Source: Variovorax paradoxus (GTDB lineage: Bacteria > Pseudomonadota > Gammaproteobacteria > Burkholderiales > Burkholderiaceae_C). Taken from it: a stretch of DNA of 64,000 bases. The notes under the pieces were generated by a model, which did not search any database, was not told the DNA's origin, and saw nothing but the letters and a program-made list of their open reading frames with translations. Shown here in pieces: positions 45,591 to 63,998 of this stretch. The position numbers were made by a program, and so were the translations under genes. Location of the stretch: contig NZ_CP123990.1 in assembly GCF_029919115.1 (NCBI RefSeq), positions 310,001-374,000 on the forward strand, given 5' to 3'. How positions within the stretch are numbered: the first letter of the stretch is position 1; every line of letters starts with the position of its first letter.

Positions 45591-46790
45591 TCAGTGCGCG
45601 CCCGACACCACCACCGGAATCTCGGTCGCCGGCGGCGTGTTGCGGCTGCGGCCGCAGCGCACGATGCCGTCGATCATCACCATGCCCACGCCCGGGATGT
45701 CGCCGAGCTGCACGCTCTCCAGCAGGCCCGGCGCGGGCGAATGCTGCGCGCGGTCCATGAAGACGAAGTCGGCATCGCGGCCCACTTCGATCAGTCCGCA
45801 ATTCAGCTTGCGGATGCGCGCCGTATTGCCCGTGGCAAAGCAGAACACCAGCTCGGCCGGAATGTTGGCAATGGACGAGAGCATGGCCACCATGCGCAGA
45901 ATGCCCAGCGGCTGCACGCCCGAGCCGGCCGGCCCGTCGGTGCCCAGGATCACGCGGTGCGGGCACTTGAGTTCGAGCGCCGCCTTGGCCGCCGCAATGG
46001 CCACCTTCTCGTTGCCGTTGTGCACGATCTCGATGGCGCGCGAGCTCTTCTCGCACAGCTCGCACACATGCGCCTCGGGCAATGAGGTGTGGCCGCCGTT
46101 GATGTGGCCGATGATGTCGGCGTCGGCCTCCAGCACCACGTCCTTGTCGATCAGGCCCGAGCCCGGAATGGACGGGCCGCCCGTGTGGATGGTGCTCTGA
46201 ATGCCGTACTTGCGCGCCCAGGCCACCATCTCCTTGGCTTCGTAGCCGGCCTTCACCGAGCCCAGGCCCACTTCGCCGAGCAGGCCCACGCCGGCTTCGG
46301 CAAGCTCCTTGAAGTCGCTCTCGACCATGCCTTTCTCGATGACCGGCGCGCCGGCCAGCACCTTCACGCCGCCGGGGCGGAAGTTGTCGAACGCGCGCTG
46401 CGCCGTGATGGCGAGCGCCTTCAGGCCCACGATGTCTTTCGGGCGGCCCGGCAGGTGCACCTCGCCGGCTGAAATCATGGTGGTCACGCCGCCGTTCATC
46501 GTGGAATCGATCCAGCCGATCTGCCCCTGGCGCGGCGTCCAGTCGCCGAACACCGGGTGCACGTGGCTGTCGATCAGTCCGGGCGCGACGCAGGTCTTCT
46601 TCGCGTCGATGACGGTTTTGGCGCCTTCGAGGTCGCAGTCTTTTTCCTTGCCCACCGCAACGATCAGCCCGTCGTTCACCACGATGGTGTCCGCGTCGAG
46701 GATGGGCTTGTCGATGTCGCCCGAGAGCAAGAGCCCGATGTTCTTTATGACGACTTTGCCCGACTTGCCGCCGGCTGCGATTTCTGCCAT
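45591..46790 (-). CDS. ena: Enamidase (nicotinate catabolism)
   Basis: 399-residue amidohydrolase. It resembles Eubacterium barkeri enamidase along its length as I recall that protein: KNIGLLLSGDIDKPILDADTIVV, metal-binding DSHVHPVFGDWTPRQ, GGVTTMISAGEVHLPGRPKD, GHINGG, the aspartate in GTDGPAGSG, and the C-terminal SRNTPPAT. It would hydrolyse 1,4,5,6-tetrahydro-6-oxonicotinate to 2-formylglutarate and ammonia. The adjacent 6-hydroxynicotinate reductase makes exactly this substrate. Its start overlaps the upstream TetR gene by 46 nt, forming an fpr-tetR-ena minus-strand operon divergent from the reductase. Confidence 0.88.
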   Translation of the reverse strand: MAEIAAGGKSGKVVIKNIGLLLSGDIDKPILDADTIVVNDGLIVAVGKEKDCDLEGAKTVIDAKKTCVAPGLIDSHVHPVFGDWTPRQGQIGWIDSTMNGGVTTMISAGEVHLPGRPKDIVGLKALAITAQRAFDNFRPGGVKVLAGAPVIEKGMVESDFKELAEAGVGLLGEVGLGSVKAGYEAKEMVAWARKYGIQSTIHTGGPSIPGSGLIDKDVVLEADADIIGHINGGHTSLPEAHVCELCEKSSRAIEIVHNGNEKVAIAAAKAALELKCPHRVILGTDGPAGSGVQPLGILRMVAMLSSIANIPAELVFCFATGNTARIRKLNCGLIEVGRDADFVFMDRAQHSPAPGLLESVQLGDIPGVGMVMIDGIVRCGRSRNTPPATEIPVVVSGAH

Positions 46791-47503
46791 TTCGTGTGGT
46801 CCTGGTCGTGGGGTGGGATGTTGTTGTCTTGCGCCTCGTCCGCGCGCACGGTGCGCAGCAGGGTCTCGATCACGAAGTCTTCCCAGTGCGTGATCGCCTC
46901 GGCCGATTCCAGCGGCTCGCCCAGGAACGCGGTGAGCGTGTGCCGGTTGGAGGTGTAGAAGTAGCCGGTGGATGCAATCAGCAGGTAGATGTCGCGCGCA
47001 ATCAGGTCTTTGCGGAACAGCCCCTGCGCCGCGCCGCTGGCCAGTATCTCGGCAATGATTGCCACCGCCCGCGACGAGTATTCGCGCGCCCTGAGCGACT
47101 TGGAAATGTGCCGGCCCTTGTGCAGGTTCTCGGTGTTCAGCAGCGTGACGAACTCGGGGTTCTTGCGGTAGTAGCCCAGCACGAAGCGAATGACTTCGGT
47201 AAGCGCCTCCACGGGCCGCGAGGCGTCGAGCGCTATCGCGGCCTCGGCGTCGTCCATGCGCTGGTAGATGCCCTCGAGCACCGCAATGAAGAGGCCTTCC
47301 TTGCTGCCGAAGTAGTAGTAGATCATCCGGTCGTACGACTTGGCGGCCTTCGAGATCTTCTCGACGCTGCCGCCGTCGTAGCCGTACTTGGCGAACACCT
47401 TGGTCGCCGCCTTCAGGATGCTGTCGCGCGTGGCCTGCGCCGCCGCCTCGCGCACGCCGGTGCGGCGCTGGGGCTTTGTGCTGGCGGAGCGGCTTTCGGC
47501 CAT
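46745..47503 (-). CDS. TetR-family regulator, NicS-like
   Basis: 252 residues: TetR helix-turn-helix (TRDSILKAATKVFAKYGYDGGSVEKISKAAKSYDRMIYYYFGSKEGLFIAVLEGIYQ) and a ligand domain resembling Pseudomonas NicS, the repressor of nicotinate hydroxylation genes. The long polar C-terminus overlaps the enamidase start. Two TGTAG/CTACA-based palindromes in the fpr/reductase intergenic region are its probable operators. Effector likely nicotinate or 6-hydroxynicotinate (inference). Confidence 0.85.
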   Translation of the reverse strand: MAESRSASTKPQRRTGVREAAAQATRDSILKAATKVFAKYGYDGGSVEKISKAAKSYDRMIYYYFGSKEGLFIAVLEGIYQRMDDAEAAIALDASRPVEALTEVIRFVLGYYRKNPEFVTLLNTENLHKGRHISKSLRAREYSSRAVAIIAEILASGAAQGLFRKDLIARDIYLLIASTGYFYTSNRHTLTAFLGEPLESAEAITHWEDFVIETLLRTVRADEAQDNNIPPHDQDHTKWQKSQPAASRAKSS

Positions 47504-47522: not shown

Positions 47523-48296
47523 CTACTTTTCGGCGAAGGCGCGCTCGACCACGAAGTCGCCTGGGGTCGAGGTGTTGCCTTCCTTGAAGCCGCGTGCCTC
47601 GAGGATGTGCTTCAGGTCCACCAGGAGGCCGGGGCTGCCGCACAGCATCACGCGGTCTTCCGTGGGGTTGATCGGGGGCAGGCCCAGGTCGTCGGTGAGC
47701 TTGTTGCTCGAAATCAGGTCGGTAATGCGGCCCTGGTTGCGAAACTCCTCGCGCGTGACCGTGGGGTAGTAGAGCAGCTGCTTCTCGACCATTTCGCCGA
47801 GAAACTCATGCTTGGGCAGGTGGTCGGTCACGAGGTCGTGATAGGCCAGTTCATCGACCTGGCGCACGCCGTGCACCAGGATGACTTGCTCGAACTTCTC
47901 GTAGGTGTCCGGGTCGCGGATGATGCTCATGAACGGTGCGAGGCCCGTGCCCGTGCCGAACAGGTACAGGCGCTTGCCGGGCAGCGTGTAGTCGATGAGC
48001 AGCGTGCCGGTGGGCTTGCGGCCCACGATGATGGTGTCGCCCACCTGGATGTGCTGCAGCTTCGAGGTGAGCGGGCCTTCTTCCACCTTGATGCTCAGGA
48101 ACTCGAGATGCTCCTCGTAGTTCGGGCTCACGATGCTGTACGCGCGCAGCAGGGGCTTGTTGTTCACCTTCAGGCCGATCATCGTGAAATGGCCGTTCGA
48201 GAAACGCAGCGCCGGGTCGCGCGTGGTGGTGAAGGTGAACAGGCGGTCGGTCCAGTGGTGGACGCTCAGGACGCGTTCTTCGCTGAATGCACTCAT
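47523..48296 (-). CDS. fpr: Ferredoxin-NADP reductase
   Basis: 257 residues, bacterial Fpr type: FAD-binding RAYSIVSPN, NADP-binding LFGTGTGLAPFMSIIRD, CGSP, and the C-terminal VERAFAEK. It passes electrons from NADPH to ferredoxin or flavodoxin. First gene of the operon with the TetR and enamidase genes and divergent from 6-hydroxynicotinate reductase, a ferredoxin-dependent enzyme, so it most likely supplies that enzyme's reductant. ATG 48296 gives the normal Fpr N-terminus; an upstream in-frame ATG adds 18 unusual residues. Confidence 0.95.
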   Translation of the reverse strand: MSAFSEERVLSVHHWTDRLFTFTTTRDPALRFSNGHFTMIGLKVNNKPLLRAYSIVSPNYEEHLEFLSIKVEEGPLTSKLQHIQVGDTIIVGRKPTGTLLIDYTLPGKRLYLFGTGTGLAPFMSIIRDPDTYEKFEQVILVHGVRQVDELAYHDLVTDHLPKHEFLGEMVEKQLLYYPTVTREEFRNQGRITDLISSNKLTDDLGLPPINPTEDRVMLCGSPGLLVDLKHILEARGFKEGNTSTPGDFVVERAFAEK

Positions 48297-48460
48297 ACGG
48301 AACTCAAGAGTTGGTTGGTAACTGGGGAAGGTGGCTGAGCCGAGATGCACGCCTTTGGGGCGCTAGCCGTCGGCCGGCTCCGAACCCTCCATTGTCGTTG
48401 GTCGGAAAAACCCCGATAACCACCGCGAGAAAACACCATTGCAAGCATCGGGCCTGTTTG

Positions 48461-48481
48461 CTACATTGACCGCGAATGTAG
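48461..48481. promoter_or_regulatory. Inverted repeat CTACATT-N7-AATGTAG (probable TetR operator)
   Basis: Perfect seven-nt arms, in the divergent fpr/6-hydroxynicotinate reductase region (48297-48611, which has no gene). It covers a TTGACC that could be a -35 element. With the next palindrome it forms a pair centred about 35 bp apart. Confidence 0.6.
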
Positions 48482-48497: not shown

Positions 48498-48515
48498 GTG
48501 TAGGGAATGCTACAC
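48498..48515. promoter_or_regulatory. Inverted repeat GTGTAG-N6-CTACAC (probable TetR operator)
   Basis: Perfect six-nt arms. An ATG that opens the longest reductase frame (48507) lies in its centre, which argues that translation starts further downstream. Confidence 0.6.
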
Positions 48516-48611
48516 AAACGGCAGACGGGGCACAAGCGGGCAGACGGCACGTTTGTTGCAAACCCCGCCACACCGGATTGCCCCATACACACTGCCCACG
48601 AGATCGCCCCG

Positions 48612-50237
48612 ATGACCGAACACACCAAGACAGACGGAATGCCCGGCATGGACATGCCGGTGGTCGCAGAAGCCGGCGGCAGCGCCTTCGGCAAGGCGCC
48701 GCCGCGCAACGAGCGCATGAGCACCGCCAAGGTCGAGTGCAATGCCTGCCCCGTGCTGTGCCAGATTTCCGACGGCCGCACGGGCGCCTGCGACCGCTAC
48801 GCCAACCGGGAAGGCGTGCTGGTGCGCGTCGACCCCGTGGTGCTGCTGCGCCGCGAGATCGCGGGCGAGGCGCCCAAGCTGGTGCCCTTCGACCGGCCGG
48901 CCGCCGAAAAGACAGAGGCCGCCGAGGCGGGCACTCCCGACTGGAACGGCGACCTGCTGCATGCCGACGAAGTCTTCGTCACCGGCGTGGGTTCTTCCAC
49001 CACCTACCCCGACTACAAGCCCGCCCCTTTCATCGTGGCCTCGAAAGCCCGGGGCGTAGACATGGTCACCGTGGTTACCGAAGGCATCTTCAGCTACTGC
49101 AGCTTCAAGGTGAAGATCGACACCGACCGCTTCCTGGGCTCCGAGCAGGCCAACGTGCGCTACCGCGGCGAGGTGGTCGGCCACGTCACCACGGCCGAAT
49201 ACGGCTCGCAGATGCTCTCGCTCGGCGGCGTGCACCACCTCACCGGCGGCAGCAAGAAGGAAGGCCGCATGACGGCCGAGCTGATGCAGCTGCTGGGCAA
49301 CAAGAAGGCGGTGGAGTGCACCATCGACGGCGGCTCCACGCTCGTCATCCAGGCCGGCAAGGCGCCCATCGTCAACGGGGTCGAAGAGCAGCGCATGCGC
49401 GTGGGCTGCGGCTCGGCGGCGGTCGGCATCTTCGCGCGCCAGTTCGCGGGCGTGGCCGACGAGGTGGTGGTGGTCGACGATCACATCACCGGCGTGCTCA
49501 CCGAGCACCAGGCCGGGCGCTGCCTCGACATGGCGCCTTCGGGCATCCAGATGCTGGGGCGCAAGTCCACGCCGGGGCGCTACTTCCAGGTGGCGAATCC
49601 GGGCAACGGCTGGGGCGGCACCGACATTGCCGATCCGCTCTCGATCATCGAAGGCTGGGAGGAGGGCGTTGCGCGCCCGGGCCTGCGCCTTCTCATGACA
49701 TCGACCACCGGCGAGCACGCGCAGTGGTACGTGCTCGACGAGGCGCTGAAGCCCGTCGAGCAGGAAATGCCCGCCGAGGTGAAGCGCATCGTCGATCGCA
49801 TCGGCGAGAACTGCGAACCGTCGCTGTGCACTGTGCTGTTCCTCGGCGGTGCGGGCGGGTCATTGCGTGCCGGCGTCACAGAAAACCCGGTGCTGCTCAC
49901 GCGCGCCATCAAGCGCGCGCTTGTCAACGTGACCTGCGGCGGCGCGCCGGCCTATGTGTGGCCCGGTGGCGGCATCACCGTGATGGCGGACGTCATGCGC
50001 ATGCCCGACAACAGCTTTGGCACCGTGCCCACGCCGGCCATCGTGGCGCCCATCGAGTTCAGCATGCGGCAAAGCGACTACCAGGCGCTCGGCGGCCACA
50101 TGGAACACATCTTCTCGCTAGAACAGGCGCTCGCGCGCGGTGCCTGGCAGGAAGACGGTGCGCCGCTGGCGCGGCAATGGCTCGCGATGGACGACGCCAA
50201 TCCGTGGCCGCTCGGGCATGCCCCGATGCTGGGCTGA
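48612..50237 (+). CDS. hnr: 6-hydroxynicotinate reductase
   Basis: 541 residues from ATG 48612 (the frame is open from 48507, inside an operator; another ATG is at 48717). An N-terminal ferredoxin-like cysteine cluster has C43, C46, C50 and C60 (VECNACPVLCQISDGRTGACDRY), for an Fe-S centre. The long C-terminal part matches 6-hydroxynicotinate reductases as annotated in Eubacterium and rhizobia. It reduces 6-hydroxynicotinate to 1,4,5,6-tetrahydro-6-oxonicotinate with reduced ferredoxin, giving the substrate of the adjacent enamidase. The E. barkeri enzyme is reported to carry Fe-S centres and covalently bound flavin. First gene of the rightward nicotinate operon. Confidence 0.85.
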   Translation: MTEHTKTDGMPGMDMPVVAEAGGSAFGKAPPRNERMSTAKVECNACPVLCQISDGRTGACDRYANREGVLVRVDPVVLLRREIAGEAPKLVPFDRPAAEKTEAAEAGTPDWNGDLLHADEVFVTGVGSSTTYPDYKPAPFIVASKARGVDMVTVVTEGIFSYCSFKVKIDTDRFLGSEQANVRYRGEVVGHVTTAEYGSQMLSLGGVHHLTGGSKKEGRMTAELMQLLGNKKAVECTIDGGSTLVIQAGKAPIVNGVEEQRMRVGCGSAAVGIFARQFAGVADEVVVVDDHITGVLTEHQAGRCLDMAPSGIQMLGRKSTPGRYFQVANPGNGWGGTDIADPLSIIEGWEEGVARPGLRLLMTSTTGEHAQWYVLDEALKPVEQEMPAEVKRIVDRIGENCEPSLCTVLFLGGAGGSLRAGVTENPVLLTRAIKRALVNVTCGGAPAYVWPGGGITVMADVMRMPDNSFGTVPTPAIVAPIEFSMRQSDYQALGGHMEHIFSLEQALARGAWQEDGAPLARQWLAMDDANPWPLGHAPMLG

Positions 50238-50404: not shown

Positions 50405-51322
50405 ATGACCGCCCAACGCAGCGCGCTCGACAAGAACCGCTGGCATTTCAACCATGGCCCGATCGACATCGTGGCCGAGGCGTACGGAGATCCCTACGCC
50501 GTCGCGGCCGCGCACGACGCAGCGTGGGCGCGCTTCGTTCACGTGCTCGACGAACTGGTGCACGAGCTGCCGCTCTTGCGCCTGCCCGCAAGCGACAACA
50601 TGCGCCCGCGCGGCGTGGTGGCCAAGCGCATGTGGAATGCGTGCGCCGCGTTCTCGCCGATGTTCGTCACGCCGATGGCGGCGGTGGCCGGCTCCGTGGC
50701 GCAGGAACTCATTGCGTTCTATGACCGCCCGGGCGTCGAACGGGCCTGGATCAACAACGGCGGCGACATTGCGCTGCACCTCGCGCCCGGGCAATCGGCG
50801 CGCGTGGGTGTGTATGCCGACCTGGCGCGCTTCGATTGGCGCAAGCATGTCGATGGTGAAAGCAGCATCCTCACCACCGACGGCCAGTTCGAGATCAAGG
50901 CCGATCAGCCGGTGCGCGGCGTGGCCACCAGCGGCTGGCGCGGCCGCAGTTTTTCGCTGGGCATTGCCGACAGCGTGACGGTGCTTGCCGCCACGGCGGC
51001 GCAAGCCGACGCCGCCGCCACAGTGATTGCCAATGCCGTCGACGTGGACGATGCAGCCATCCAACGGCGCCCCGCGAACGAATGCAAGGACGATAGCGAC
51101 CTGGGCGACATTTTGGTCACGGTCGATGTGCCGCCGCTGGCGCCTTCGCAGGTACAAAGCGCGCTGGACACGGGGGCTGTCTGCGCCAAGGTGCTGCAGA
51201 AAGGCGGGCTCGTCTGGGCCGTTCTGCTCGTTTGCCAGGGGCAGTGGCGACTTGTCGAACCCTTATGCTCGAAGGCGCTGCCGGCGGCGGCCTCCGTGGC
51301 AGTTGGTTCAGTATTTGCTTAA
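50405..51322 (+). CDS. UPF0280-family protein (ApbE-like)
   Basis: 305 residues. Its fold family is related to ApbE flavin transferases, with AWINNGGDIALHL and GVATSGWRGRSFSLGIADSVTVLAATAAQADAAATVIANAV corresponding to the ApbE N-GGD and T-S...G-ADA blocks. It follows directly on 6-hydroxynicotinate reductase, a covalent flavoprotein in Eubacterium, so it may attach the flavin to that enzyme (inference). The C-terminal 60 residues are less conserved-looking. No signal peptide, so cytoplasmic, consistent with a cytoplasmic target. Start ATG 50405; upstream is repeat DNA. Confidence 0.82.
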   Translation: MTAQRSALDKNRWHFNHGPIDIVAEAYGDPYAVAAAHDAAWARFVHVLDELVHELPLLRLPASDNMRPRGVVAKRMWNACAAFSPMFVTPMAAVAGSVAQELIAFYDRPGVERAWINNGGDIALHLAPGQSARVGVYADLARFDWRKHVDGESSILTTDGQFEIKADQPVRGVATSGWRGRSFSLGIADSVTVLAATAAQADAAATVIANAVDVDDAAIQRRPANECKDDSDLGDILVTVDVPPLAPSQVQSALDTGAVCAKVLQKGGLVWAVLLVCQGQWRLVEPLCSKALPAAASVAVGSVFA

Positions 51323-51342: not shown

Positions 51343-51984
51343 ATGATCGATATACGCCGCGTCTTCACCCATGTCGAGCACATCCACCACGAGTTCGGCC
51401 CGCGCGCCGACACCCCGTTGGTGCGCGGTGCCATCGGCGCGGTGCTGACCAATCCTTTTGCGGGCCGCTACGAGCCCGACATCCTGCCGATGATGGCGCT
51501 GCTCGACCCCGTGGGCGTCGACATGGCGCACAAGCTGCATGCCGCCATGGATGTGCCGCTCGAACAGATCGCCACCTACGGCAAGGGCGCCATCGTCGGT
51601 GCCGCGGGCGAGCTCGAGCACGGCGCGCTCTGGCATGTGCCCGGCGGCTACGCCATGCGCGAACTGCTCGGCTGGAAGGGCAGCCGCGCCGCCTACACCG
51701 CGGGCAAGGCCGAAGAAAAAACCGGCCAGCCCGGCAACGCGCTTTCCATCGTGCCCTCGACCAAGAAGGTCGGCCCGCCCGGCGCGGCGCTCGACGTGCC
51801 GCTCACCAACATCAACGCCAGCTACGTGCGCGGCCAGTTCGACGCCATTGAAGTGCGCGTGCCCGGCGCGCCCGCGGCCGACGAGATCGTCTTCATCCTG
51901 GCCATGAGCACGGGCTACCGCGTGCATGCGCGCGTGGGTGGGCTGCTCGCCAAGGACATCAGCAAATGGGACGGCCTGCGCTGA
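51343..51984 (+). CDS. DUF1185 (amino acid synthesis family) protein, paralogue 1
   Basis: 213 residues. Shares with the next gene the family blocks TNPFAGRYEPD, ATYGKGAIVGAAGELEHGA, STKKVGPPGAALDVPL and a C-terminal RVGGL. Family function is not established; the Pfam name amino acid synthesis rests on weak evidence. It carries an inserted region (RELLGWKGSRAAYTAGKAEEKTGQPGNA) relative to the paralogue. Position in the nicotinate operon suggests action on a pathway intermediate, for instance 2-formylglutarate (inference). Confidence 0.85.
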   Translation: MIDIRRVFTHVEHIHHEFGPRADTPLVRGAIGAVLTNPFAGRYEPDILPMMALLDPVGVDMAHKLHAAMDVPLEQIATYGKGAIVGAAGELEHGALWHVPGGYAMRELLGWKGSRAAYTAGKAEEKTGQPGNALSIVPSTKKVGPPGAALDVPLTNINASYVRGQFDAIEVRVPGAPAADEIVFILAMSTGYRVHARVGGLLAKDISKWDGLR

Positions 51985-52018
51985 GCCGGCCCTACAGAGA
52001 CAAGAAGGAACACAAGAC

Positions 52019-52603
52019 ATGACCGCCAACATCCGCAAGCTCGTCGTCCAGGTCGACGAAACCCGCAAGGAAATGGGCAAGGACATCACGCCGCCCACGC
52101 GCCGCGCGGTGGCCATCGCCGTGATCGAGAACCCCTATGCGGGCCGCTTCAGCGAGAACCTCGACGAGCTGATCGCCATCGGCGAAGAGCTGGGCGCGCT
52201 GCTCGGCCAGAAGGCCGTGAAGGCACTTGGCATCGAGCCCGGCCAGGCGCAGAGCTACGGCAAGGCCGCCATCGTGGGCGAGAACGGCGAGCTCGAGCAT
52301 GCGGCCGCCATCCTGCATCCCAAGCTGGGCGCGCCGCTGCGCGTGGCCGTTGAAAAGGGCGCGGCGCTGGTGCCTTCTGCCAAGAAGCGCGGCACGCTGG
52401 GCACCGCCATCGACGTGCCGCTCGGCCATAAAGACGCCGCCTTCGTGCGCAGCCATTTCGACGCCGTCGAAGCCCGCGTCTCCGATGCGCCGCGTGCCAA
52501 CGAGATCGTGGTGGCGGTGGCCATTACCGACAGCGGCCGTCCGCTGCCTCGCATCGGCGGGCTGCAGGCCAGTGAAATCAAGGGTGAAGACGGGCTTCGC
52601 TGA
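52019..52603 (+). CDS. DUF1185 (amino acid synthesis family) protein, paralogue 2
   Basis: 194 residues, clearly homologous to the preceding product: ENPYAGRFSENLDEL, QSYGKAAIVGENGELEHAAAILHPKLGAPLR, PSAKKRGTLGTAIDVPLGHKDAAFVRSHFDA, RIGGL. The pair probably arose by tandem duplication and may form a hetero-oligomer. AGAAGGA precedes ATG 52019. Cytoplasmic; enzymatic role unknown. Confidence 0.85.
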   Translation: MTANIRKLVVQVDETRKEMGKDITPPTRRAVAIAVIENPYAGRFSENLDELIAIGEELGALLGQKAVKALGIEPGQAQSYGKAAIVGENGELEHAAAILHPKLGAPLRVAVEKGAALVPSAKKRGTLGTAIDVPLGHKDAAFVRSHFDAVEARVSDAPRANEIVVAVAITDSGRPLPRIGGLQASEIKGEDGLR

Positions 52604-52674: not shown

Positions 52675-53880
52675 ATGAACCCATTGCGTCACGTCTTCAG
52701 CGCCGCGGCAGTTGCCACACTGGCTACCGCACTCGTTCCTGCCCATGCCCAGGGCGTGATCAAGATCGGCGAGGTCAACAGCTACAAGGCCCAGCCTGCC
52801 TTCCTGGAGCCCTACAAGAAGGGCATGGAACTGGCTGTTGAAGAAATCAACGCCAAGGGCGGCGTCAACGGCCGCAAGGTCGAGCTCATCACGCGTGACG
52901 ACAACGCCAACCCCGGCGACGCGGTGCGCGTGGCCGAAGAGTTGGTGGCGCGCGAGAAGATCGACGTGCTCACCGGCACCTTCCTGTCGAACACAGGCCT
53001 GGCGGTGGCCGACTTTGCCAAGCAAAAGAAAATCTTCTTCCTGGCCGGCGAGCCGCTGACCGACAAGATGACCTGGCAGGGCGGTAATGAATACACCTTC
53101 CGCCTGCGCCCCGGCACCTACATGCAGGCCGCAATGCTGGTGCCCGAGGCGGCCAAGCTCAAGAAGAAGCGCTGGGCCGTGGTGTACCCCAACTACGAAT
53201 ACGGCCAGTCGGCCGTCGCTGCATTCAAGACGCTGCTCAAGGCTGCGCAGCCCGACGTGGAATTTGTGGCCGAGCAGGCGCCGCCGCTCGGCAAGGTCGA
53301 TGCGGGCGCGGTGGTGCAGGCGCTGGCCGACGCCAAGCCCGATGCGGTCTTCAACGTGCTGTTCGGCGCCGACCTTTCCAAGTTCGTGCGCGAAGGCAAT
53401 ACCCGCGGCCTCTTCAAGGACCGCACGGTGGTGAGCGTGCTGACCGGCGAGCCCGAGTACCTCGACCCGCTCAAGGACGAAACGCCCAACGGCTGGATCG
53501 TGACCGGCTATCCCTGGTACGGCATCCAGACGCCCGAGCACAAGGCCTTCTTCCTTGCGTATCACGGCAAGTACAAGGACTACCCGCGCCTCGGCTCGGT
53601 GGTTGGCTACACCATGATCAAGTCGGTGGCGGCGGGCATCGAAAAAGCCAAGAGCACCGAGACGCCCAAGCTCATTGCCGCCTTCAAGGGCCTGCAGGTC
53701 GACTCGCCCTTCGGCAAGATCAGCTATCGCGCCGAAGACCACCAGTCGACCATGGGCGCGTTCGTGGGCAAGACCAGGAACGAGAACGGCAAGGGCGTGA
53801 TGGTCGACTACACGTACTTCGACGGCGCCAAGTTCCAGCCCACCGCCGCCGACGTGAAGAAGTCGCGCGCCGCGGACTGA
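52675..53880 (+). CDS. Branched-chain-type ABC transporter substrate-binding protein
   Basis: 401 residues: Sec signal ending AHAQG, then a type-1 periplasmic-binding (LivK-like) fold (IKIGEVNSYKAQPAFLEPYKKGMELAVEEINAKGGVNGRKVELITRDD). Preceded by AAGGAG. It heads a complete Liv-type importer (fused permease plus two ATPases). In this operon it likely binds nicotinate, nicotinamide or a related pyridine rather than leucine (inference). Confidence 0.92.
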   Translation: MNPLRHVFSAAAVATLATALVPAHAQGVIKIGEVNSYKAQPAFLEPYKKGMELAVEEINAKGGVNGRKVELITRDDNANPGDAVRVAEELVAREKIDVLTGTFLSNTGLAVADFAKQKKIFFLAGEPLTDKMTWQGGNEYTFRLRPGTYMQAAMLVPEAAKLKKKRWAVVYPNYEYGQSAVAAFKTLLKAAQPDVEFVAEQAPPLGKVDAGAVVQALADAKPDAVFNVLFGADLSKFVREGNTRGLFKDRTVVSVLTGEPEYLDPLKDETPNGWIVTGYPWYGIQTPEHKAFFLAYHGKYKDYPRLGSVVGYTMIKSVAAGIEKAKSTETPKLIAAFKGLQVDSPFGKISYRAEDHQSTMGAFVGKTRNENGKGVMVDYTYFDGAKFQPTAADVKKSRAAD

Positions 53881-56065: not shown

Positions 56066-56088
56066 CCCTCTCCCAGAGAGAGAGAGGG
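56066..56088. repeat. Short CCCTCTC/GAGAGGG palindrome before livG
   Basis: Reduced member of the intergenic repeat family. Its right arm GAGAGGGAG lies seven nt before the ATG at 56098 and so supplies the ribosome-binding site. Confidence 0.7.
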
Positions 56089-56097
56089 AGTAAACAC

Positions 56098-56904
56098 ATG
56101 ACACTTCTCAAAGTAGACAACCTAGGCAAATCCTTCGGCGGCGTCAAAGCCGTAGACGGCATCAGCTTCGAACTCAAGGCGGGCGAGCTGCTCGCCCTCA
56201 TCGGTCCGAACGGCGCCGGCAAGTCCACCACCTTCAACATGGTGAACGGCCAACTCAAGGCCGACCAGGGCTCGATCGTGTTCGACGGCCATGAACTCGT
56301 GGGACAAAAGCCCCGGGCCATCTGGCGCCTGGGCGTTGGCCGCACCTTCCAGATCGCCGAAACCTTCGCATCCCTCACCGTGGCCGAAAACGTGCAGATG
56401 GCCATGCTGTCGCACGACGGCAAGCTGTTCTCGATGTGGCGCCGCGCAGCGGACCACAAGCGCGAAGAAGCCATTGCACTGCTCGACCAGGTCGGCATGA
56501 AGGCACAGGCCGACCGGCCTTGCAGCGAGCTGGCCTACGGCGACGTGAAGCGCGTCGAGCTCGCAATTGCAATGGCCAATGCGCCCAAGCTGCTGCTCAT
56601 GGACGAGCCCACGGCCGGCATGGCGCCGAAGGAGCGCAATTCGCTGATGGCGCTCACCAAGGAACTCGTGGTTCAGCGCGGCCTGGCGGTGCTGTTCACC
56701 GAGCACAGCATGGACGTGGTGTTTGCCTACGCCGACCGCATGATCGTGCTGGCGCGGGGCCGCCTCATCGCGCAGGGCAAGCCGCTCGAGATACGCGACC
56801 ATCCGAAAGTGCAGGAGGTGTACTTCGGCAGCGGCAAGACCTTCGAGAAGATTGCAGAAAAAGCCGCTGAGGTGAACGCGGCGGTGGGAGCAGCAACGGC
56901 ATGA
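56098..56904 (+). CDS. Branched-chain-type ABC transporter ATP-binding protein (LivG type)
   Basis: 268-residue ATPase: Walker A GPNGAGKST, the LivG-like VGRTFQIAETFASLTVAENVQM, a signature region in SELAYGDVKRVELA, Walker B LLLMDEPTAGM and H-loop FTEHSMD. One of two ATPases for the fused permease. The start lies directly downstream of repeat sequence. Stop overlaps livF start (ATGA). Confidence 0.94.
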   Translation: MTLLKVDNLGKSFGGVKAVDGISFELKAGELLALIGPNGAGKSTTFNMVNGQLKADQGSIVFDGHELVGQKPRAIWRLGVGRTFQIAETFASLTVAENVQMAMLSHDGKLFSMWRRAADHKREEAIALLDQVGMKAQADRPCSELAYGDVKRVELAIAMANAPKLLLMDEPTAGMAPKERNSLMALTKELVVQRGLAVLFTEHSMDVVFAYADRMIVLARGRLIAQGKPLEIRDHPKVQEVYFGSGKTFEKIAEKAAEVNAAVGAATA

Positions 56905-57635
56905 GCACGCACGAAACACTGTTGAAGGCCAATGCGCTGTGCGCCTGGTACGGCGCCGCGCAGATCCTGTACGACGTCGATCTCGAAGTGCGGCGCGGCG
57001 AGGTCGTCGCGCTCATGGGCCGCAACGGCGCCGGCAAGTCGACCACGCTGAAGACGCTGATCGGCATGCTCTCCAAGCGCAAGGGCAACGTGAGCTTTCT
57101 GGGGCATGACATCTCGAAGAGCGAGCCGCACCACGCGGCAAAGCTCGGCCTCGGCTTTGTGCCCGAAGACCGCCGCGTGTTCACCGATCTCACGGTGATG
57201 GAAAACCTCGAGGTCGGCAAGCAGCCACCGCGGCGCTGGGCCGACGGCAGCGAGGCGCCGCTGTGGACGCCCGAACGCCTGTTCAAGCTTTTTCCGAACC
57301 TCGGCGAAATGCCCAACCGGCCCGGCGGCCGCATGAGCGGTGGCGAGCAGCAGATGCTGACGGTGGCGCGCACGCTCATGGGCAACCCGTACCTGGTGCT
57401 GCTCGACGAGCCTTCGGAAGGTGTGGCGCCGGTCATCGTCGAGCAGATGGCCAACATGATCCTGGAGCTCAAGGCGCAAGGCGTGAGCATCCTGCTGTCG
57501 GAACAGAACATGCATTTTGCGGAGCTGGTGTCCGACCGCGCCTATGTGCTCGAAAAGGGCCAGATCCGCTACCAGGCCACCATGGCAGAGCTTGCGGCCA
57601 ACGAGGAAGTGCGCCGCGCCTACCTGAGCGTCTAG
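56901..57635 (+). CDS. Branched-chain-type ABC transporter ATP-binding protein (LivF type)
   Basis: 244-residue ATPase: Walker A GRNGAGKST, LGFVPEDRRVFTDLTVMENLEV, signature MSGGEQQMLTVART, Walker B LVLLDEPSEGVAP, SEQNMHF. Second ATPase of the importer; completes the set with the fused permease and the binding protein. Confidence 0.95.
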   Translation: MSTHETLLKANALCAWYGAAQILYDVDLEVRRGEVVALMGRNGAGKSTTLKTLIGMLSKRKGNVSFLGHDISKSEPHHAAKLGLGFVPEDRRVFTDLTVMENLEVGKQPPRRWADGSEAPLWTPERLFKLFPNLGEMPNRPGGRMSGGEQQMLTVARTLMGNPYLVLLDEPSEGVAPVIVEQMANMILELKAQGVSILLSEQNMHFAELVSDRAYVLEKGQIRYQATMAELAANEEVRRAYLSV

Positions 57636-57686: not shown

Positions 57687-58409
57687 ATGCACGACACGCA
57701 GCGAAGATACCTTCTCAAGTCCACGGCTGCATTGAGCATGCTGGGTGCCGCCGGGGCGCTGTTCGCGGCGCCGAAGATCAAGCCGAACGACAAGTCTGCG
57801 CTGATCGTCATCGACGTGCAGAACTGTTTTGTCGACGGGGGCACGCTGCCCGTCAAGGGCGGCGCCGAGGTGGTGCCGGTCATCAACAAGCTGGCCGAGT
57901 CGTTCGAGAACATCGTCGTCACGCAAGACTGGCACACGCAAGGCCATGCGTCTTTCGCGAGCGCGCATGCGGGGCAGAAGCCGTTCAGCAGCATCAAGCT
58001 CTCGTACGGCAACCAGGTGCTCTGGCCCGACCACTGCGTGCAGGGCACCGACGACGCGGCCCTGCACAAGGACCTGAAGCTGCCGACCGCGCAGGTCATC
58101 GTCCGCAAGGGCTTTCACAAGGGCGTGGACAGTTATTCGGCCTTCGAAGAGGCCGACCGCAAGACCGCCACGGGCCTGGGCGGCTATCTCAAGCAGCGCG
58201 GCATCAAGACGGTCTACGTGGCCGGCCTGGCCACCGACTTCTGCGTGGCCTGGACCGCGCTCGACGCGCGCAAGGCGGGCTTCGAGGTGTTTGTGATCGA
58301 AGACGCCACGCGCGCCATCGACCTCAACGGCTCGCTTGCCGCGGCATGGAAGCAAATGACCGCCAAGGGCGTCAAGCGCATCCAGTCCGCAGACATCCAG
58401 GCCGCCTGA
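57687..58409 (+). CDS. Nicotinamidase-like isochorismatase-family hydrolase, exported
   Basis: 240 residues. The N-terminal RRYLLKSTAALSMLGAAGALFAAPK reads as a Tat- or Sec-type signal. The mature part is PncA-like: catalytic aspartate in VIDVQNCFVDGGTLPV, metal site in QDWHTQGHASFAS, WPDHCVQGT, catalytic lysine in VRKGFHKGVDSYSAF and cysteine in GLATDFCVAWTALDA. It would convert nicotinamide to nicotinate plus ammonia in the periplasm, feeding the importer or the NicAB-type dehydrogenase. Periplasmic location is inferred from the signal; most PncA proteins are cytoplasmic. Confidence 0.88.
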   Translation: MHDTQRRYLLKSTAALSMLGAAGALFAAPKIKPNDKSALIVIDVQNCFVDGGTLPVKGGAEVVPVINKLAESFENIVVTQDWHTQGHASFASAHAGQKPFSSIKLSYGNQVLWPDHCVQGTDDAALHKDLKLPTAQVIVRKGFHKGVDSYSAFEEADRKTATGLGGYLKQRGIKTVYVAGLATDFCVAWTALDARKAGFEVFVIEDATRAIDLNGSLAAAWKQMTAKGVKRIQSADIQAA

Positions 58410-58475: not shown

Positions 58476-59636
58476 ATGAAGACTTCCATTTCGAGGCGCA
58501 CCCTCGTGGCGGGCGGCGCAGCCCTGGCAATCGGTCCCGGGCTCCTGCGACCGGCACGCGCGGAAAACGGCGTCACCGACAGCGTCATCCGCATCGGCCA
58601 GTCGGCCGTCTTCAGCGGCCCGGCCAAGGACTTCGGCATCGACTACCGCGCCGGCATCAAGCTCTACTTCGACCGCGTCAACAAGTCGGGAGGCGTGAAC
58701 GGCCGCAAGCTCGAGCTGGTGACGTACGACGATGCCTATGACCCCGCCAAGACCGCCATCAACACGGCCAAGCTGATCGACGAGGACAAGGTCTTTGCGC
58801 TTGCGGGCTACGTAGCCACCGGCAACCTCGTGGCCGCAATGCCGCTGGCCGAGAAGGGCGGCGTGCCCATGTTCGCGCCGCTGGTGGGCACCAGTTCGTT
58901 CCGCGCCAAGGTCAACCGCCTGCTGTTCCACGTGCGCGCGGGCTACGACCTGGAGCTGCGCAAGATCATCAGCCACCTTTCCACCATCAGCCTCTCGTCG
59001 ATTGCGGTGGTCTACCAGGACAGCGCCTTCGGCAAGTCGAACCTTGCCACCTGCGAGCAGCTGGCGGCCGACTACAAGGTGCAGGTCGTGAAGACGCTGC
59101 CGCTTGCCATTACCGCCGAAGACGCGAAGCAGGTGGTCGCGGGACTGGCCGAGGTGAAGCCCGGCGCGGTCTTGATGATCATGGCCGGGCGCATGGTCGA
59201 AGTGTTCATTCGCGACTACCGGGCAGGCGGCGGGGCCGCGCCGCTCTACACGCTGTCGGTCGGCATTACCGATGCGGCGGGTTCGGCCAAGCGGCTCGAG
59301 GGCAAGCTTGCCGGGCTGGTCACGGCCAGCATCGTGCCGCCGCCGGAGGCCGTGCGCGTGCCCATCGTGGCCGACTACCAGCGCGACCGGGCGGAGTTCG
59401 GCGAGAAGATCGACAGCTACACCACGCTCGAAGGCTACATCGCCTCGCGCGTGATGGTCGAGGGCCTGCGCCGCGGCGGCAAGACGCTCACGCGAGACAG
59501 CTTCATCGCCGGGCTGGAGAGCATCGGCAGCACGCGCTTCGGCGATTTCCCGGTCGAATACAGCGCGAGGAACCACAACGGTTCGACGTTCGTCGACCTG
59601 GAGATGTACACCCGTGACGGCCACTTGCGGCGCTGA
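58476..59636 (+). CDS. ABC transporter substrate-binding protein, Tat-type signal (second receptor)
   Basis: 386 residues. The Tat-like signal SRRTLVAGGAALAIGPGLLRPARA precedes a LivK-like type-1 binding fold (VIRIGQSAVFSGPAKDFGIDYRAGIKLYFDRVNKSGGVNGRKLELVTYDD). A second receptor for the same Liv-type importer, probably with a different ligand such as nicotinate versus nicotinamide (inference). Its 3' end overlaps the NicA-like gene by 23 nt. Confidence 0.9.
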   Translation: MKTSISRRTLVAGGAALAIGPGLLRPARAENGVTDSVIRIGQSAVFSGPAKDFGIDYRAGIKLYFDRVNKSGGVNGRKLELVTYDDAYDPAKTAINTAKLIDEDKVFALAGYVATGNLVAAMPLAEKGGVPMFAPLVGTSSFRAKVNRLLFHVRAGYDLELRKIISHLSTISLSSIAVVYQDSAFGKSNLATCEQLAADYKVQVVKTLPLAITAEDAKQVVAGLAEVKPGAVLMIMAGRMVEVFIRDYRAGGGAAPLYTLSVGITDAAGSAKRLEGKLAGLVTASIVPPPEAVRVPIVADYQRDRAEFGEKIDSYTTLEGYIASRVMVEGLRRGGKTLTRDSFIAGLESIGSTRFGDFPVEYSARNHNGSTFVDLEMYTRDGHLRR

Positions 59637-60114
59637 GCCGCTGCAGCTGCAGGTCAACGGGCAGGCCTGTTCGATTGCGGGCGTGCCGCGCGAGGCCACG
59701 CTGCTGCACCTGCTGCGCAACGACCTGGGCCTGAACGGGCCCAAGTACGGCTGTGGCCTGGGCCAGTGCGGCGCCTGCACGGTGCATGTCGACGGTGTGG
59801 CGGCACGCGCCTGCGTGATTCCCGCACACGGCGTGGCAGGCCGCGCCGTCACCACGCTCGAGGGGCTGGGCACGCGTGGCCATTGGCACCCCGTGCAGGC
59901 CGCATTCGAAGACGCACAGGCTGCGCAGTGCGGCTATTGCCTGAACGGCATGGTGATGCAGGCTGCGGCGCTGCTTGCGCGCGATCCGCATGCGAGCGAG
60001 GCGCGGATTCGCAGTGAGTTGTCGGGCAACCTGTGCCGCTGCGGAACGCATATCGAAATTCTGGACGCGGTGCAGCGGGCTGCGCTGCGCATGCGCGAGG
60101 CGATTCATCCATGA
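59614..60114 (+). CDS. nicA: Nicotinate dehydrogenase-like 2Fe-2S subunit (NicA type)
   Basis: 166 residues with the two [2Fe-2S] sites of xanthine-oxidase-family small subunits: a plant-type cluster (YGCGLGQCGACTVHVDG, then ARAC) and a C-terminal cluster (QCGYCLNGM, LCRCGTH). GTG start at 59614, inside the preceding gene. It passes electrons from the molybdenum centre of the next product towards cytochrome c. Isoquinoline 1-oxidoreductase-type enzymes have the same architecture, but the nicotinate context favours NicA. Confidence 0.88.
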   Translation: MTATCGAEPLQLQVNGQACSIAGVPREATLLHLLRNDLGLNGPKYGCGLGQCGACTVHVDGVAARACVIPAHGVAGRAVTTLEGLGTRGHWHPVQAAFEDAQAAQCGYCLNGMVMQAAALLARDPHASEARIRSELSGNLCRCGTHIEILDAVQRAALRMREAIHP

Positions 60115-60172: not shown

Positions 60173-62962
60173 ATGACGCGGCGCGCCGATCTCCCCCGGA
60201 CACGCGCGGAGTTTCTCGCCGCCGACGGCGTGCTGCTCGTGGTGCGCGAAACCCCACCTGCGCCTCCTCCCGCCAAAGGCCAGCCCACAGCCGTAGCCGG
60301 CAACCCCATCGAAGGCGACGAGATCCTGCTCGCGGTATGGGACGACGGCAGCGCCTCGGCGCTCAACGGCCACGTCGATCTGGGCACCGGCATACAGACC
60401 GCGCTCGCGCAGATCGTGGCGGAAGAACTCGACCTGGGCATGCCCTGCGTGCGCATGATGCTCGGCGACACCGCGCGCGCGCCCAACCAGGGCGCGACCA
60501 TTGCAAGCGCCTCGATCCAGATCCATTCGCAGCCATTGCGCCTTGCGGCTGCCCAGGCGCGAGCCTGGCTGCTTGCGTGCGCGGCGGAGCATCTGGGCAC
60601 AACCACTGAAGCACTGCAGATTCGCAACGGCGTGGTGCGCATGATCGAGGAGCCCGATCGCCGCGTGACCTACGCCGACCTGGTGGCAGGGCAGCGCACC
60701 GTGCTGCGGCTCGACCCCGGCGCACAACCAAAGAACCCCGCGGACTACCGTATCGTCGGCACGCGCCAGCCGCGCGTGGACATTCCCGCCAAGCTGGCGG
60801 GCGAGAGCGTCTTCGTGCACGACATGCGCGTGCCGGGCATGCTGCACGGCCGCGTGGTGCGCCCGCCATACGCCGGCGCGGACCACGGCGACTTCATCGG
60901 CAACACGCTCGAGTCAGTCGACGAAACATCCATTGCGCACATTCCGGGCATTCGTGCGGTGGTCGTGATCCGCGACTTCGTCGGCATCGTGGCCGAGCGC
61001 GAAGAGCACGCGGAGCAGGCCCTGCGCGAACTGCGCGTGGCGTGGAAGCCCTGGCCCGGCATGCCGGACCTCTCGAACCTGGCGCAGGCCTTGCGCGACA
61101 ACCCGTCGACGCAGCGCCTCTTGGTGGATGAAGGTGACGTCGACGGCGCCCTTGCCGCGGCCGCGCAGCCGATGCACCGCACCTATGTGTGGCCTTATCA
61201 GATGCATGCGTCCATCGGGCCTTCGTGCGCGCTGGCCGATTGGCAGCCGCAGGACGGCAGCGGCACGCAGCTGCGCGTTTGGGCCGGTTCGCAAAATCCG
61301 CACGTGCTGCGTGCCGATCTCGCCAGGCTCATGGGCGTGGACGACGTGCAGGTCGATGTGGTCCGCATGGAAGCAGCGGGCTGCTATGGCCGCAACGGTG
61401 CCGACGACGTGGCCGCCGACGCGGCGCTGCTCGCGCGTGCAGTGGGCGCCCCCGTGCGCGTGCAGCTCACGCGCGAGCAGGAGCATGCCTGGGAGCCCAA
61501 GGGCGCCGCACAGCTCATGGAAGTGGATGGCGGCCTGATGGCCGACGGCCGCATTGCGGCCTACGACTTCGAGACCTCCTATCCATCGAACGGCGCACCC
61601 ACGCTCGCGCTGCTTCTTACACGCACCATCGAGCCGGTGGCGCAGGCCTTCGAGATGGGCGACCGCACGGCGCGCCCGCCCTACGGCTACGACAACCTTC
61701 GCGTGAAGGTCAACGACATGGCGCCGATCGTGCGGGCCTCATGGCTGCGCGGGGTGTCGGCGCTGCCGAGTTCGTTCGCGCACGAGTCGTACATCGACGA
61801 GCTTGCCACCGCGGCGGGCGTCGACCCGGTTCAGTTCCGCCTGCGCCACCTGAACGACCCGCGTGCCGTCGAGCTGGTGCAGGCCACCGCGCAGAAGGCG
61901 GGCTGGCGCATGCGTACCGGCCCGCAGGAAAACGCCGACGGCGGGCTTGGCGCGGGCGGCGACATTCTCTTCGGCCAGGGTTTTGCGTATGCACGCTACA
62001 TCCACAGCAAGTGGCCCGGCTTCGGCGCCGCATGGGCCGCGTGGGTGGCCGATGTCGAGGTGAACCGCAAGACCGGCGAAGTGCATGTGCGCCGCGTGGT
62101 GGTGGGCCACGACGCGGGGCTGATGATCAACCCCGCGGGCGTCGAGCACCAGGTGCATGGCAACGTGATCCAGACCACGAGCCGCGCATTGAAGGAAGAG
62201 GTGCAGTTCGCACCGCCGCAGCAAGGCGAAGGCTCTAACGGTGGCGCGCAGCTGCCGGGTGTGTTGCCCACCGGCGTGGTCGCCAGCCGCGAGTGGGGGA
62301 GCTACCCGATCATCAGCTTCCGCGAAGTGCCGGTGATCGAGGTCATGCACATGCCGCGGCCCGGCGAGCCTTCGCTGGGTGCGGGCGAATCGTCTTCGGT
62401 GCCGGGGACTGCGGCCATTGCGAATGCGATTTTCGACGCGACGGGAGTGAGGTTCCGTGAGCCGCCGTTCACGCCGGAGAAGGTGCTGGCCGAACTGAAC
62501 CGGGTTTTGCTCCCTCCCCTTCCGGGGGAGGGCGGGGGTGGGGGCGAGCGGCGCTCGAAGGGTGACGCTGCCGTGCCCCCATCCCAACCTTCCCCCGGAA
62601 GGGGAAGGGGCAATGCACCTTGGCCTCGGCGCAAGGGCCTCTTCGCCACCGGCGCCGTCCCCCGGAAGGGGAAGGGGCAATGCACCTTGGCCTCGGCGCA
62701 AGGGCCTCTTCGCCACCGGCGCCGCCCTCTTCATCGGCGGCATCGGCCTCGTCGCCGGCCTGCTCGGCTGGCGCTCCGCCATCGCCCCCGTTTCGCTCAG
62801 CGCCCCGGTCTACAGCGAAGCCACCATCGAACGCGGCCGCGTGCTCGCCGCGCTCGGCGATTGCGCCGTGTGCCACACCGAACCGGGCGGCGTGCCCAAT
62901 GCGGGTGGCCGTGCGATGGAAACGCCCTTCGGCACGCTCTACACCACCAACCTCACGCCTGA
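60173..62962 (+). CDS. nicB: Nicotinate dehydrogenase-like molybdopterin subunit (NicB N-terminal part, frame-disrupted)
   Basis: Residues 1-775 are a molybdopterin-cytosine-dinucleotide hydroxylase subunit: FNGHVDLGTGIQTALAQIVAEELD-like opening (here LNGHVDLGTG), GDTARAPNQGATIAS, and the general-base glutamate in GAGESSSVPG (Glu739). In Pseudomonas NicB this domain continues into a tri-haem cytochrome c. Here an intergenic repeat adds PPLPGEGGGGG... as an in-frame linker, and a 67-bp tandem duplication then shifts the frame. The last 100 or so residues (to 62962) are therefore a meaningless Arg/His-rich frame over the cytochrome gene. It hydroxylates nicotinate to 6-hydroxynicotinate. Alternative start ATG 60155. 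Confidence 0.85.
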   Translation: MTRRADLPRTRAEFLAADGVLLVVRETPPAPPPAKGQPTAVAGNPIEGDEILLAVWDDGSASALNGHVDLGTGIQTALAQIVAEELDLGMPCVRMMLGDTARAPNQGATIASASIQIHSQPLRLAAAQARAWLLACAAEHLGTTTEALQIRNGVVRMIEEPDRRVTYADLVAGQRTVLRLDPGAQPKNPADYRIVGTRQPRVDIPAKLAGESVFVHDMRVPGMLHGRVVRPPYAGADHGDFIGNTLESVDETSIAHIPGIRAVVVIRDFVGIVAEREEHAEQALRELRVAWKPWPGMPDLSNLAQALRDNPSTQRLLVDEGDVDGALAAAAQPMHRTYVWPYQMHASIGPSCALADWQPQDGSGTQLRVWAGSQNPHVLRADLARLMGVDDVQVDVVRMEAAGCYGRNGADDVAADAALLARAVGAPVRVQLTREQEHAWEPKGAAQLMEVDGGLMADGRIAAYDFETSYPSNGAPTLALLLTRTIEPVAQAFEMGDRTARPPYGYDNLRVKVNDMAPIVRASWLRGVSALPSSFAHESYIDELATAAGVDPVQFRLRHLNDPRAVELVQATAQKAGWRMRTGPQENADGGLGAGGDILFGQGFAYARYIHSKWPGFGAAWAAWVADVEVNRKTGEVHVRRVVVGHDAGLMINPAGVEHQVHGNVIQTTSRALKEEVQFAPPQQGEGSNGGAQLPGVLPTGVVASREWGSYPIISFREVPVIEVMHMPRPGEPSLGAGESSSVPGTAAIANAIFDATGVRFREPPFTPEKVLAELNRVLLPPLPGEGGGGGERRSKGDAAVPPSQPSPGRGRGNAPWPRRKGLFATGAVPRKGKGQCTLASAQGPLRHRRRPLHRRHRPRRRPARLALRHRPRFAQRPGLQRSHHRTRPRARRARRLRRVPHRTGRRAQCGWPCDGNALRHALHHQPHA
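62509..62608. repeat. Intergenic-type palindromic repeat inside nicB, copy 3
   Basis: Same family as 45468-45566 and 50271-50370: hairpin CCCTCCCCTTCCGGGGGAGGG at the left and CCTTCCCC-CGGAA-GGGGAAGG at the right, with a different centre. It is read in frame by the molybdopterin gene and overlaps the first unit of the 67-bp duplication. Confidence 0.85.
62591..62724. repeat. Perfect 67-bp tandem duplication
   Basis: Units 62591-62657 and 62658-62724 are identical. Each holds the repeat's right hairpin, a GGGGCAATGC and the codons for NAPWPRRKGLFATGA. 67 is not a multiple of three. The first unit reads NAPWPRR... in the molybdopterin frame, the second in the cytochrome frame; deleting one unit gives a single open frame of 1,253 codons from 60173 to 63998. 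Confidence 0.97.
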
Positions 62963-63998
62963 CGCCGACACCGGCCTGGGCCGTTGGTCATTCAGCGCCT
63001 TCCAGCGCGCGATGCGCGAAGGCGTCTCTCGCGACGGCCATCACCTGTACCCGGCCTTTCCGTACACGGCATTCGCCAAGACGAGCGATGACGACCTGCA
63101 AGCGCTTTATGCGTACTTCATGTCCATGCCCGCGGTGCGCGCCGAAACGCCGAAGGCCGAGCTGAAGTTTCCATTCAGCATGCGGCCGTTGATGGCCGGC
63201 TGGAACGCGCTCTTTCATGACCCGGCACCGCTGCAGCCGGTGGCCACGCAAAGCGCGGAGTGGAACCGCGGCGCCTACCTGGTCAACGGCCTGGGCCACT
63301 GCGGCGCGTGCCATACGCCGCGCAATGCGCTCGGCGCGGAACAAGGCGGCAGCGCGTTCCTTTCGGGCGCAATGATCGACGGCTGGGAAGCGCCCCCGCT
63401 CACCGGCCTTTCAAGATCGGCCGTGCCTTGGGACGCCGACGAGCTCTACCGCTACCTGCGCCAGGGCCACACGCAGCGCCACGGCATTGCAGGCGGCCCC
63501 ATGGCCGAGGTGGTGCGCGAACTGGCGCAGGTGCCCGACGCCGACGTGCGCGCCATGGCCACGTACCTCGCTTCTTTCAACCCGGCGCCCGTGGCACAGC
63601 CGCAAGCCGCGGCGCAGCAGGTTGTCGACACCGCCGCGCGCAGCCAAGGCCGATTGCTCGGCCCCGCGCAGCGCATGTTCGACAGCGCCTGCGCGTCATG
63701 CCACCACGACGGCGACGGCCCCACGCTGCTCGGCGTGAACACGCCGCTTGCGCTGAACAGCAACCTCACGAGCGCACGGCCCGACAACCTGCTGCGCACC
63801 ATTCTCGACGGCGTGCGCGAACCCGCGAGCCGCGACATCGGCTTCATGCCGGCGTTCCGCGAAGCGCTCGACGACCGGCAGATAGCCGAACTCGCCGGCT
63901 ACATGCGCGCACGCTTCGCGCCGCAGGAGCCGGCGTGGACCGACCTGCAGGCGCAGGTGGCACGCGCGCGGGCCGCGTCGGGGCAAACAGGCCGGTGA
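62613..63998 (+). CDS. Tri-haem cytochrome c (NicB C-terminal part, separate frame)
   Basis: 461 residues from ATG 62613 (461 is provisional; the frame is open from 62538). Three haem-binding motifs: CAVCH (Cys84), CGACH (Cys230) and CASCH (Cys360), as in the C-terminal region of NicB and in alcohol/aldehyde dehydrogenase cytochromes. A hydrophobic helix GLFATGAALFIGGIGLVAGLLGW anchors it to the membrane. It takes electrons from the NicA-like Fe-S protein to the respiratory chain, making nicotinate hydroxylation aerobic. The ATG lies in duplication unit 1 and has GGAAGGGG upstream, so the duplication itself may have provided a working start. Confidence 0.85.
   Translation: MHLGLGARASSPPAPSPGRGRGNAPWPRRKGLFATGAALFIGGIGLVAGLLGWRSAIAPVSLSAPVYSEATIERGRVLAALGDCAVCHTEPGGVPNAGGRAMETPFGTLYTTNLTPDADTGLGRWSFSAFQRAMREGVSRDGHHLYPAFPYTAFAKTSDDDLQALYAYFMSMPAVRAETPKAELKFPFSMRPLMAGWNALFHDPAPLQPVATQSAEWNRGAYLVNGLGHCGACHTPRNALGAEQGGSAFLSGAMIDGWEAPPLTGLSRSAVPWDADELYRYLRQGHTQRHGIAGGPMAEVVRELAQVPDADVRAMATYLASFNPAPVAQPQAAAQQVVDTAARSQGRLLGPAQRMFDSACASCHHDGDGPTLLGVNTPLALNSNLTSARPDNLLRTILDGVREPASRDIGFMPAFREALDDRQIAELAGYMRARFAPQEPAWTDLQAQVARARAASGQTGR

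Follow-up and report, generated by a model that had tools for sequence, protein, structure and literature searches.

A probable reductive nicotinate cluster in which the gene for 6-hydroxynicotinate reductase is paired with UPF0280

The question raised by the locus studied here is whether its genes form a new hybrid of aerobic nicotinate oxidation and reductive ring opening, as the original prediction had it, or a nicotinate cluster of a known kind, and what the genes in between might do. The locus lies in a 64-kb stretch of DNA (positions 310001-374000 of a 5.81-Mb single-contig genome; hereafter the window, to which all coordinates refer), where the nicotinate gene cluster spans 45591-63998. 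The host appears to be Variovorax-like, since its gene for 6-hydroxynicotinate reductase (hnr) shares 98% identity with the one in Variovorax sp. DXTD-1 and 99% with the one in Variovorax sp. S2. We read the locus, with good confidence, as a cluster for the aerobic, reductive catabolism of nicotinate, of the kind known from Azorhizobium and Bradyrhizobiaceae, in which a UPF0280 protein is the partner of the reductase (Hnr) and likely its maturation factor. The pathway itself is ordinary; the strict pairing of hnr with UPF0280 and an exchangeable ring-opening module look new, and these are the parts that merit following.

The pathway read from the cluster

Most of the proteins named in the original prediction were confirmed. 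The enamidase scored 366 bits against the Eubacterium barkeri enamidase 2VUN, with 30 bits for the next structure in the Protein Data Bank (PDB), and the nicotinamidase exceeded its NCBIfam cut-off (181.6 versus 174 bits for NF008623). The latter is probably exported, to judge from an N-terminus that resembles an export signal. Hnr (open frame 48507-50237) is closely related to proteins named 6-hydroxynicotinate reductase, and 80 loci were collected. The NicA/NicB-type hydroxylase was recognised by Pfam in its 2Fe-2S part (Fer2, Fer2_2) and its molybdenum part (MoCoBD_1, MoCoBD_2), and by three CxxCH motifs in its cytochrome c part. The predicted oxidation at the membrane gains support from the likeness of the molybdenum and cytochrome parts to 8gy3, a membrane-bound enzyme of three parts, with nicotinate as the substrate read from the gene context.

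Families, neighbourhoods, co-occurrence and the predicted fold of UPF0280 were computed, and from these we infer the reactions and the electron route in the strain, its regulation and the maturation role of UPF0280. The probably exported nicotinamidase would make nicotinate, which the membrane-linked 2Fe-2S/molybdenum/cytochrome c hydroxylase would convert to 6-hydroxynicotinate, passing the electrons to the respiratory chain. Hnr would then reduce 6-hydroxynicotinate to 1,4,5,6-tetrahydro-6-oxonicotinate, with electrons probably running from NADPH through the neighbouring ferredoxin-NADP reductase (FNR) to a ferredoxin, and the enamidase would open the ring to give ammonia and 2-formylglutarate, the latter suggested as product by enamidase homology alone. 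In Azorhizobium the carbon then proceeds through glutarate.

The FNR itself, which the original prediction had called dedicated, is well matched by 4f7d (378 bits). The word dedicated is unsupported, because the genome holds no second close FNR copy (next best 31% identity, 37 bits). Of 31 related loci, 11 have an FNR inside the stretch fetched around hnr, which makes it a frequent neighbour of hnr.

The fermentation of nicotinate by E. barkeri, in work attributed to Alhapel in 2006, is said to rely on Hnr for the reduction and on enamidase for opening the ring; both steps are common to the two systems, which differ in that nicotinate is here taken in hand by an entry enzyme of the cytochrome c type, in a host from an aerobic group. 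With NicAB of Pseudomonas putida the cluster shares the 2Fe-2S, molybdenum and cytochrome c parts, but here a reductive route follows instead of an oxygenase route, and the cytochrome part lies in another frame.

Membrane oxidation, reductive dearomatisation and hydrolytic ring opening fit the genes as predicted, but their combination is not new, as the reductive route has been reported in the aerobic Azorhizobium caulinodans and its cluster in Bradyrhizobiaceae (PMC3511419). Shettigar 2012 (PMC3511419) describes a cluster that covers the first three steps and includes an ABC transporter as well as two conserved proteins of unknown function; A. caulinodans, Bradyrhizobium, Rhodopseudomonas and strain SG-6C (Bradyrhizobiaceae) have it in common. 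The reductive route is likewise assigned to E. barkeri and A. caulinodans in the relevant part of PMC9304392. The present cluster contains hnr (homologues so named), the enamidase (366 bits), the hydroxylase and an ABC transporter, and thus shares with the Azorhizobium/SG-6C type, as far as that account goes, the aerobic host, the hydroxylase, reductase and third step, the transporter and the conserved unknown proteins. It differs in having a TetR gene and two palindromes where MarR is found there, in its extra genes for a nicotinamidase and a second binding protein, and in hydroxylase frames split by a repeat. That the substrate is another pyridine or a lactam, the gene names mirroring kinship only, seems very improbable: sequence alone does not reveal the substrate, and the best full-length PDB match of the hydroxylase is an aldehyde dehydrogenase, yet enamidase, Hnr, nicotinamidase and hydroxylase occur together, and the kindred clusters belong to nicotinate users, as described in that part of PMC3511419.

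The repeat, an exact 67-bp tandem duplication between the molybdenum and cytochrome parts, places the two in different frames, so the NicAB-type one-frame fusion is absent here. It is a recent event or an assembly error. The length of the repeat is indivisible by three, and the two parts share one frame in 7/7 relatives examined, single hydroxylase chains being annotated in CP099606.1 (1267 aa) and in Neorhizobium. A broken entry hydroxylase, with the pathway fed only by external 6-hydroxynicotinate or a related pyridine and nicotinate left unused, would account for these observations. We nevertheless regard this as unlikely, considering that the cytochrome part could be a separate subunit as in 8gy3, its frame offering an ATG of its own (62613) together with a hydrophobic stretch, and that the assembly may be at fault.

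Pairing of hnr with UPF0280

UPF0280, both AA_synth genes, the branched-chain-type ABC transporter and the second binding protein had been overlooked in the original prediction. Of 398 Pseudomonadota genomes, 32 contain hnr, and it is these 32 that contain UPF0280, downstream of hnr and on the same strand; the broader COG2122 model, which also matches two methanogens, returned exactly the same genomes. UPF0280 was present in 80/80 kept genome-contig hnr loci, and the distance between the two genes was -70 to 618 bp in 110 of 111 loci (unmeasured in L176). Out of 72,556 plasmid records, 26 contained hnr and 27 UPF0280. In all 26 the UPF0280 gene adjoins hnr on one strand, with gaps of -28 to 566 bp. 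The 27th plasmid, from Hydrogenophaga sp. BPS33, has a 42-position match to Hnr residues 475-510 ahead of UPF0280, near an IS1071 transposase gene. This match is a remnant of hnr, so that the exception conforms to the rule. UPF0280 is therefore a strict partner of Hnr, and no description of the pairing was found in the literature searched. As a separate observation, the BPS33 plasmid carries a repeated cassette (L214 6987-8040 and 17796-18849), with UPF0280 after the short hnr remnant near IS1071 transposase genes, and four UPF0280 places were counted in the record.

COG2122 acts with a DUF39 system in homocysteine synthesis, according to the passages on that system in PMC5764234, whereas here the partner is Hnr; DUF39 was found in 0/398 genomes and was rejected as a partner.

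Hnr offers few landmarks of its own: no Pfam family matched it above cut-off, and no meaningful PDB match was obtained by sequence. Seven cysteines, one CxxCx3C...C group included, are conserved in 108 or 109 of 109 Hnr sequences (L176, L177 and L178 omitted). E. barkeri Hnr carries three Fe-S clusters, which seven cysteines alone could not bind. Four apparent Hnr-UPF0280 fusions were rejected, the extra length being added N-terminal residues in P0283 and P0357, an internal repeat in P0246, and in P0249 an extension beyond the usual Hnr end that has no UPF0280 motifs. The start of hnr is probably ATG 48612 and not 48507, because the public relatives are mostly about 540 aa long and the upstream ATG coincides with part of the conserved palindrome (48499-48514).

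As to the role of UPF0280, the protein (NF003322, 394 bits against a cut-off of 290; the Pfam scan began at 50396, nine bases 5' of its ATG) is predicted to have the ApbE flavin transferase fold over its whole length. It resembles the ApbE/FmnB transferases, as treated in the pertinent part of PMC12052999, in this fold and in keeping the Ser and Asp motifs, ATSG being present in 111/111 UPF0280 sequences; it differs in having no conserved catalytic His, and Hnr differs in having no ApbE target motif. The host genome gave no match to the ApbE model. Most likely, judging by the predicted fold, UPF0280 is a maturation factor of Hnr, and the maturation possibly concerns a covalent flavin.

UPF0280 might instead serve the reductase structurally or in electron transfer, as a subunit co-produced with Hnr, and not be a maturation enzyme. 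The often overlapping or nearly touching genes would suit such a subunit, as would the want of a conserved ApbE catalytic His, but E. barkeri Hnr is not known to have a second subunit. UPF0280 is predicted, from end to end, to fold like a modifying enzyme, and ATSG is invariant. COG2122 moreover serves the unrelated DUF39 system, as the relevant passages of PMC5764234 have it. On balance we consider a subunit role rather doubtful and retain the maturation factor.

Several observations weigh against the reading of the cluster as an aerobic nicotinate pathway with a UPF0280 maturation factor. The catalytic His of ApbE (His257 in V. cholerae) lacks a conserved equivalent in UPF0280: the profile alignment shows no His in the matching stretch, and a His between the two UPF0280 motifs occurs in 12 sequences only. 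The ApbE target motif D-x-x-[ST]-G-A-[ST] was found in 0/110 Hnr proteins, and a canonical flavinylation motif in Hnr was accordingly rejected. In L165 a MarR-like match sits between hnr and UPF0280, and the co-occurrence sets consist of Pseudomonadota or plasmids, uncorrected for shared ancestry, which the Fisher values likewise disregard. Hnr was assigned solely through relatives that bear its name. To these are added the hydroxylase frames separated by the repeat and the fact that none of the cluster genes was recognised as coding for a ferredoxin.

Ring opening and entry enzymes in related loci

Among the 31 other hnr genomes, enamidase is present in 17 and was not found in 14. A close HyuB homologue occurs in all 14 hnr genomes without enamidase and in 2 of the 18 with it (own genome counted), where close means at least 67% identity to HyuB of locus L169, a line set after viewing the list, the next value being 46%. 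This genome-wide count covers HyuB, and HyuA was looked at near hnr only. Inside the fetched stretch around hnr, HyuA or HyuB was seen in 8/14 loci without enamidase and in 0/17 with it. Clusters without enamidase that have a HyuA/HyuB-type hydantoinase/oxoprolinase near hnr are L164-L167, L169, L174, L179 and L180, and also L216 and L218; in the rest of the 14 the HyuB match lies away from hnr (1.4 Mb distant in G139).

Rhizobium-like genomes make up the majority of the 14, so shared ancestry carries weight. In family f38, however, there is one genome of each kind, and in family f55 one genome (G339) has enamidase and only a distant HyuB, while four of its kin, and G386 too, show the reverse. 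Neorhizobium sp. NCHU2750 combines hnr and UPF0280 with hyuA, hyuB, nicAB and two small genes at the AA_synth positions, and no amidohydrolase is annotated in the stretch. In Sagittula stellata, hyuA/hyuB genes accompany hnr and UPF0280, and AA_synth occurs twice; Sulfitobacter pontiacus has an amidohydrolase in the stretch and no hydantoinase gene there. Where hnr genomes lack enamidase, a HyuA/HyuB-type enzyme is thus likely to open the ring instead, and its opening of the lactam would probably use ATP.

AA_synth was found in 43/319 genomes, and three of them (G019, G170, G249) have it without hnr, so it was rejected as an hnr-specific marker. In G123 and G194 the AA_synth pair adjoins a distant enamidase, which ties these genes to ring opening, and the proteins probably act at that step or directly after it. 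The entry enzyme also varies: in 16 of the 31 loci it is a fused 2Fe-2S-molybdenum chain with an FAD subunit, in 14 it is of the cytochrome type, and in L165 neither type was seen. In Sagittula, AA_synth is followed by a gene for the alpha subunit of a ring-hydroxylating dioxygenase; in Sulfitobacter such a gene is close to AA_synth, and acyl-CoA genes are found near the enamidase (L215 1-2794 and 13058-14125; L218 13607-14677).

Extent and regulation of the cluster

The features are collected in Table 1; ena, tetR and fpr are on the minus strand and the remainder on the plus strand, running from hnr, UPF0280 and the two AA_synth genes through the transporter, nicotinamidase and second binding protein to the hydroxylase parts. 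The end was set at 63998 because the genes just past the window (alpha/beta hydrolases, an aldehyde dehydrogenase and a cupin) are unmatched in 36 related loci, among which only L196-L198 extend well beyond the cytochrome gene.

Table 1. Cluster features with window coordinates and the matches behind each name
Feature	Position	Strand	Evidence
Enamidase (ena)	45591..46790	-	366 bits to 2VUN, residues 11-390
TetR repressor, TetR_C_29 type	46745..47503	-	Pfam; RutR model far below cut-off
Bacterial ferredoxin-NADP reductase (fpr)	47523..48350	-	378 bits to 4f7d
Two palindromes, probable TetR operators	48461-48481, 48499-48514		Pattern search
6-Hydroxynicotinate reductase (hnr)	48612..50237, open frame from 48507	+	Homologues so named
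UPF0280/COG2122, ApbE-fold partner of Hnr	50405..51322	+	NF003322, 394 bits, cut-off 290
AA_synth gene 1 (DUF1185)	51343..51984	+	Pfam PF06684, 210 bits; PDB 3byq
AA_synth gene 2	52019..52603	+	Pfam PF06684, 240 bits for frame 51926-52603
ABC transporter substrate-binding protein	52675..53880	+	Peripla_BP_6
Fused LivH/LivM-type permease	53915..55837	+	BPD_transp_2, two stretches
LivG-type ATPase	56098..56904	+	NCBIfam, under curated cut-offs
LivF/UrtE-type ATPase	56901..57635	+	NCBIfam, under curated cut-offs
Nicotinamidase with probable export signal	57687..58409	+	NF008623 above cut-off
Second substrate-binding protein	58476..59636	+	Peripla_BP_6
2Fe-2S hydroxylase subunit (NicA-like)	59614..60114	+	Fer2, Fer2_2
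Molybdenum subunit (NicB-like)	60173..62962, frame passes through repeat	+	MoCoBD_1, MoCoBD_2; 8gy3_C residues 43-776
Exact 67-bp tandem repeat	62591..62724		Between molybdenum and cytochrome parts
Three-haem cytochrome c part of hydroxylase	62613..63998	+	Three CxxCH; 8gy3_A, 330 bits

The regulator, predicted to be a NicS-like TetR, is indeed a TetR protein by Pfam; its best curated model is RutR, at 67.6 bits against a cut-off of 368, and the likeness to NicS is conjectural. The two palindromes are the sole matches of their pattern in the window, and these or similar ones lie upstream of hnr in 69/80 genome-contig loci; in the 27 loci from L153 to L180 no palindrome of that pattern was found upstream of hnr. 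They are probable TetR operators, through which the repressor would probably govern the divergent promoters.

Elsewhere, a long GC-rich inverted repeat lies in 55838-56097, the stretch that separates the permease gene from that of the first ATPase, and two adjoining amidohydrolase-family matches on the plus strand (32584-34922) have no relation to the cluster as far as examined.

The pairing of hnr with UPF0280 gives a genomic lead, in aerobic hosts, to what is done by a family that also figures in homocysteine synthesis, in a way still to be explained, and where HyuAB takes the place of enamidase a second way of opening the same ring is predicted. Both can be joined in a tentative proposal, for which we claim only modest odds, namely that UPF0280 would be a dedicated ApbE-fold enzyme with a non-classical centre that installs a covalent flavin in cytosolic Hnr, and that HyuA/HyuB would open the lactam where enamidase is missing. 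If this is true, the same UPF0280 activity could explain the need for COG2122 in DUF39-dependent homocysteine synthesis.

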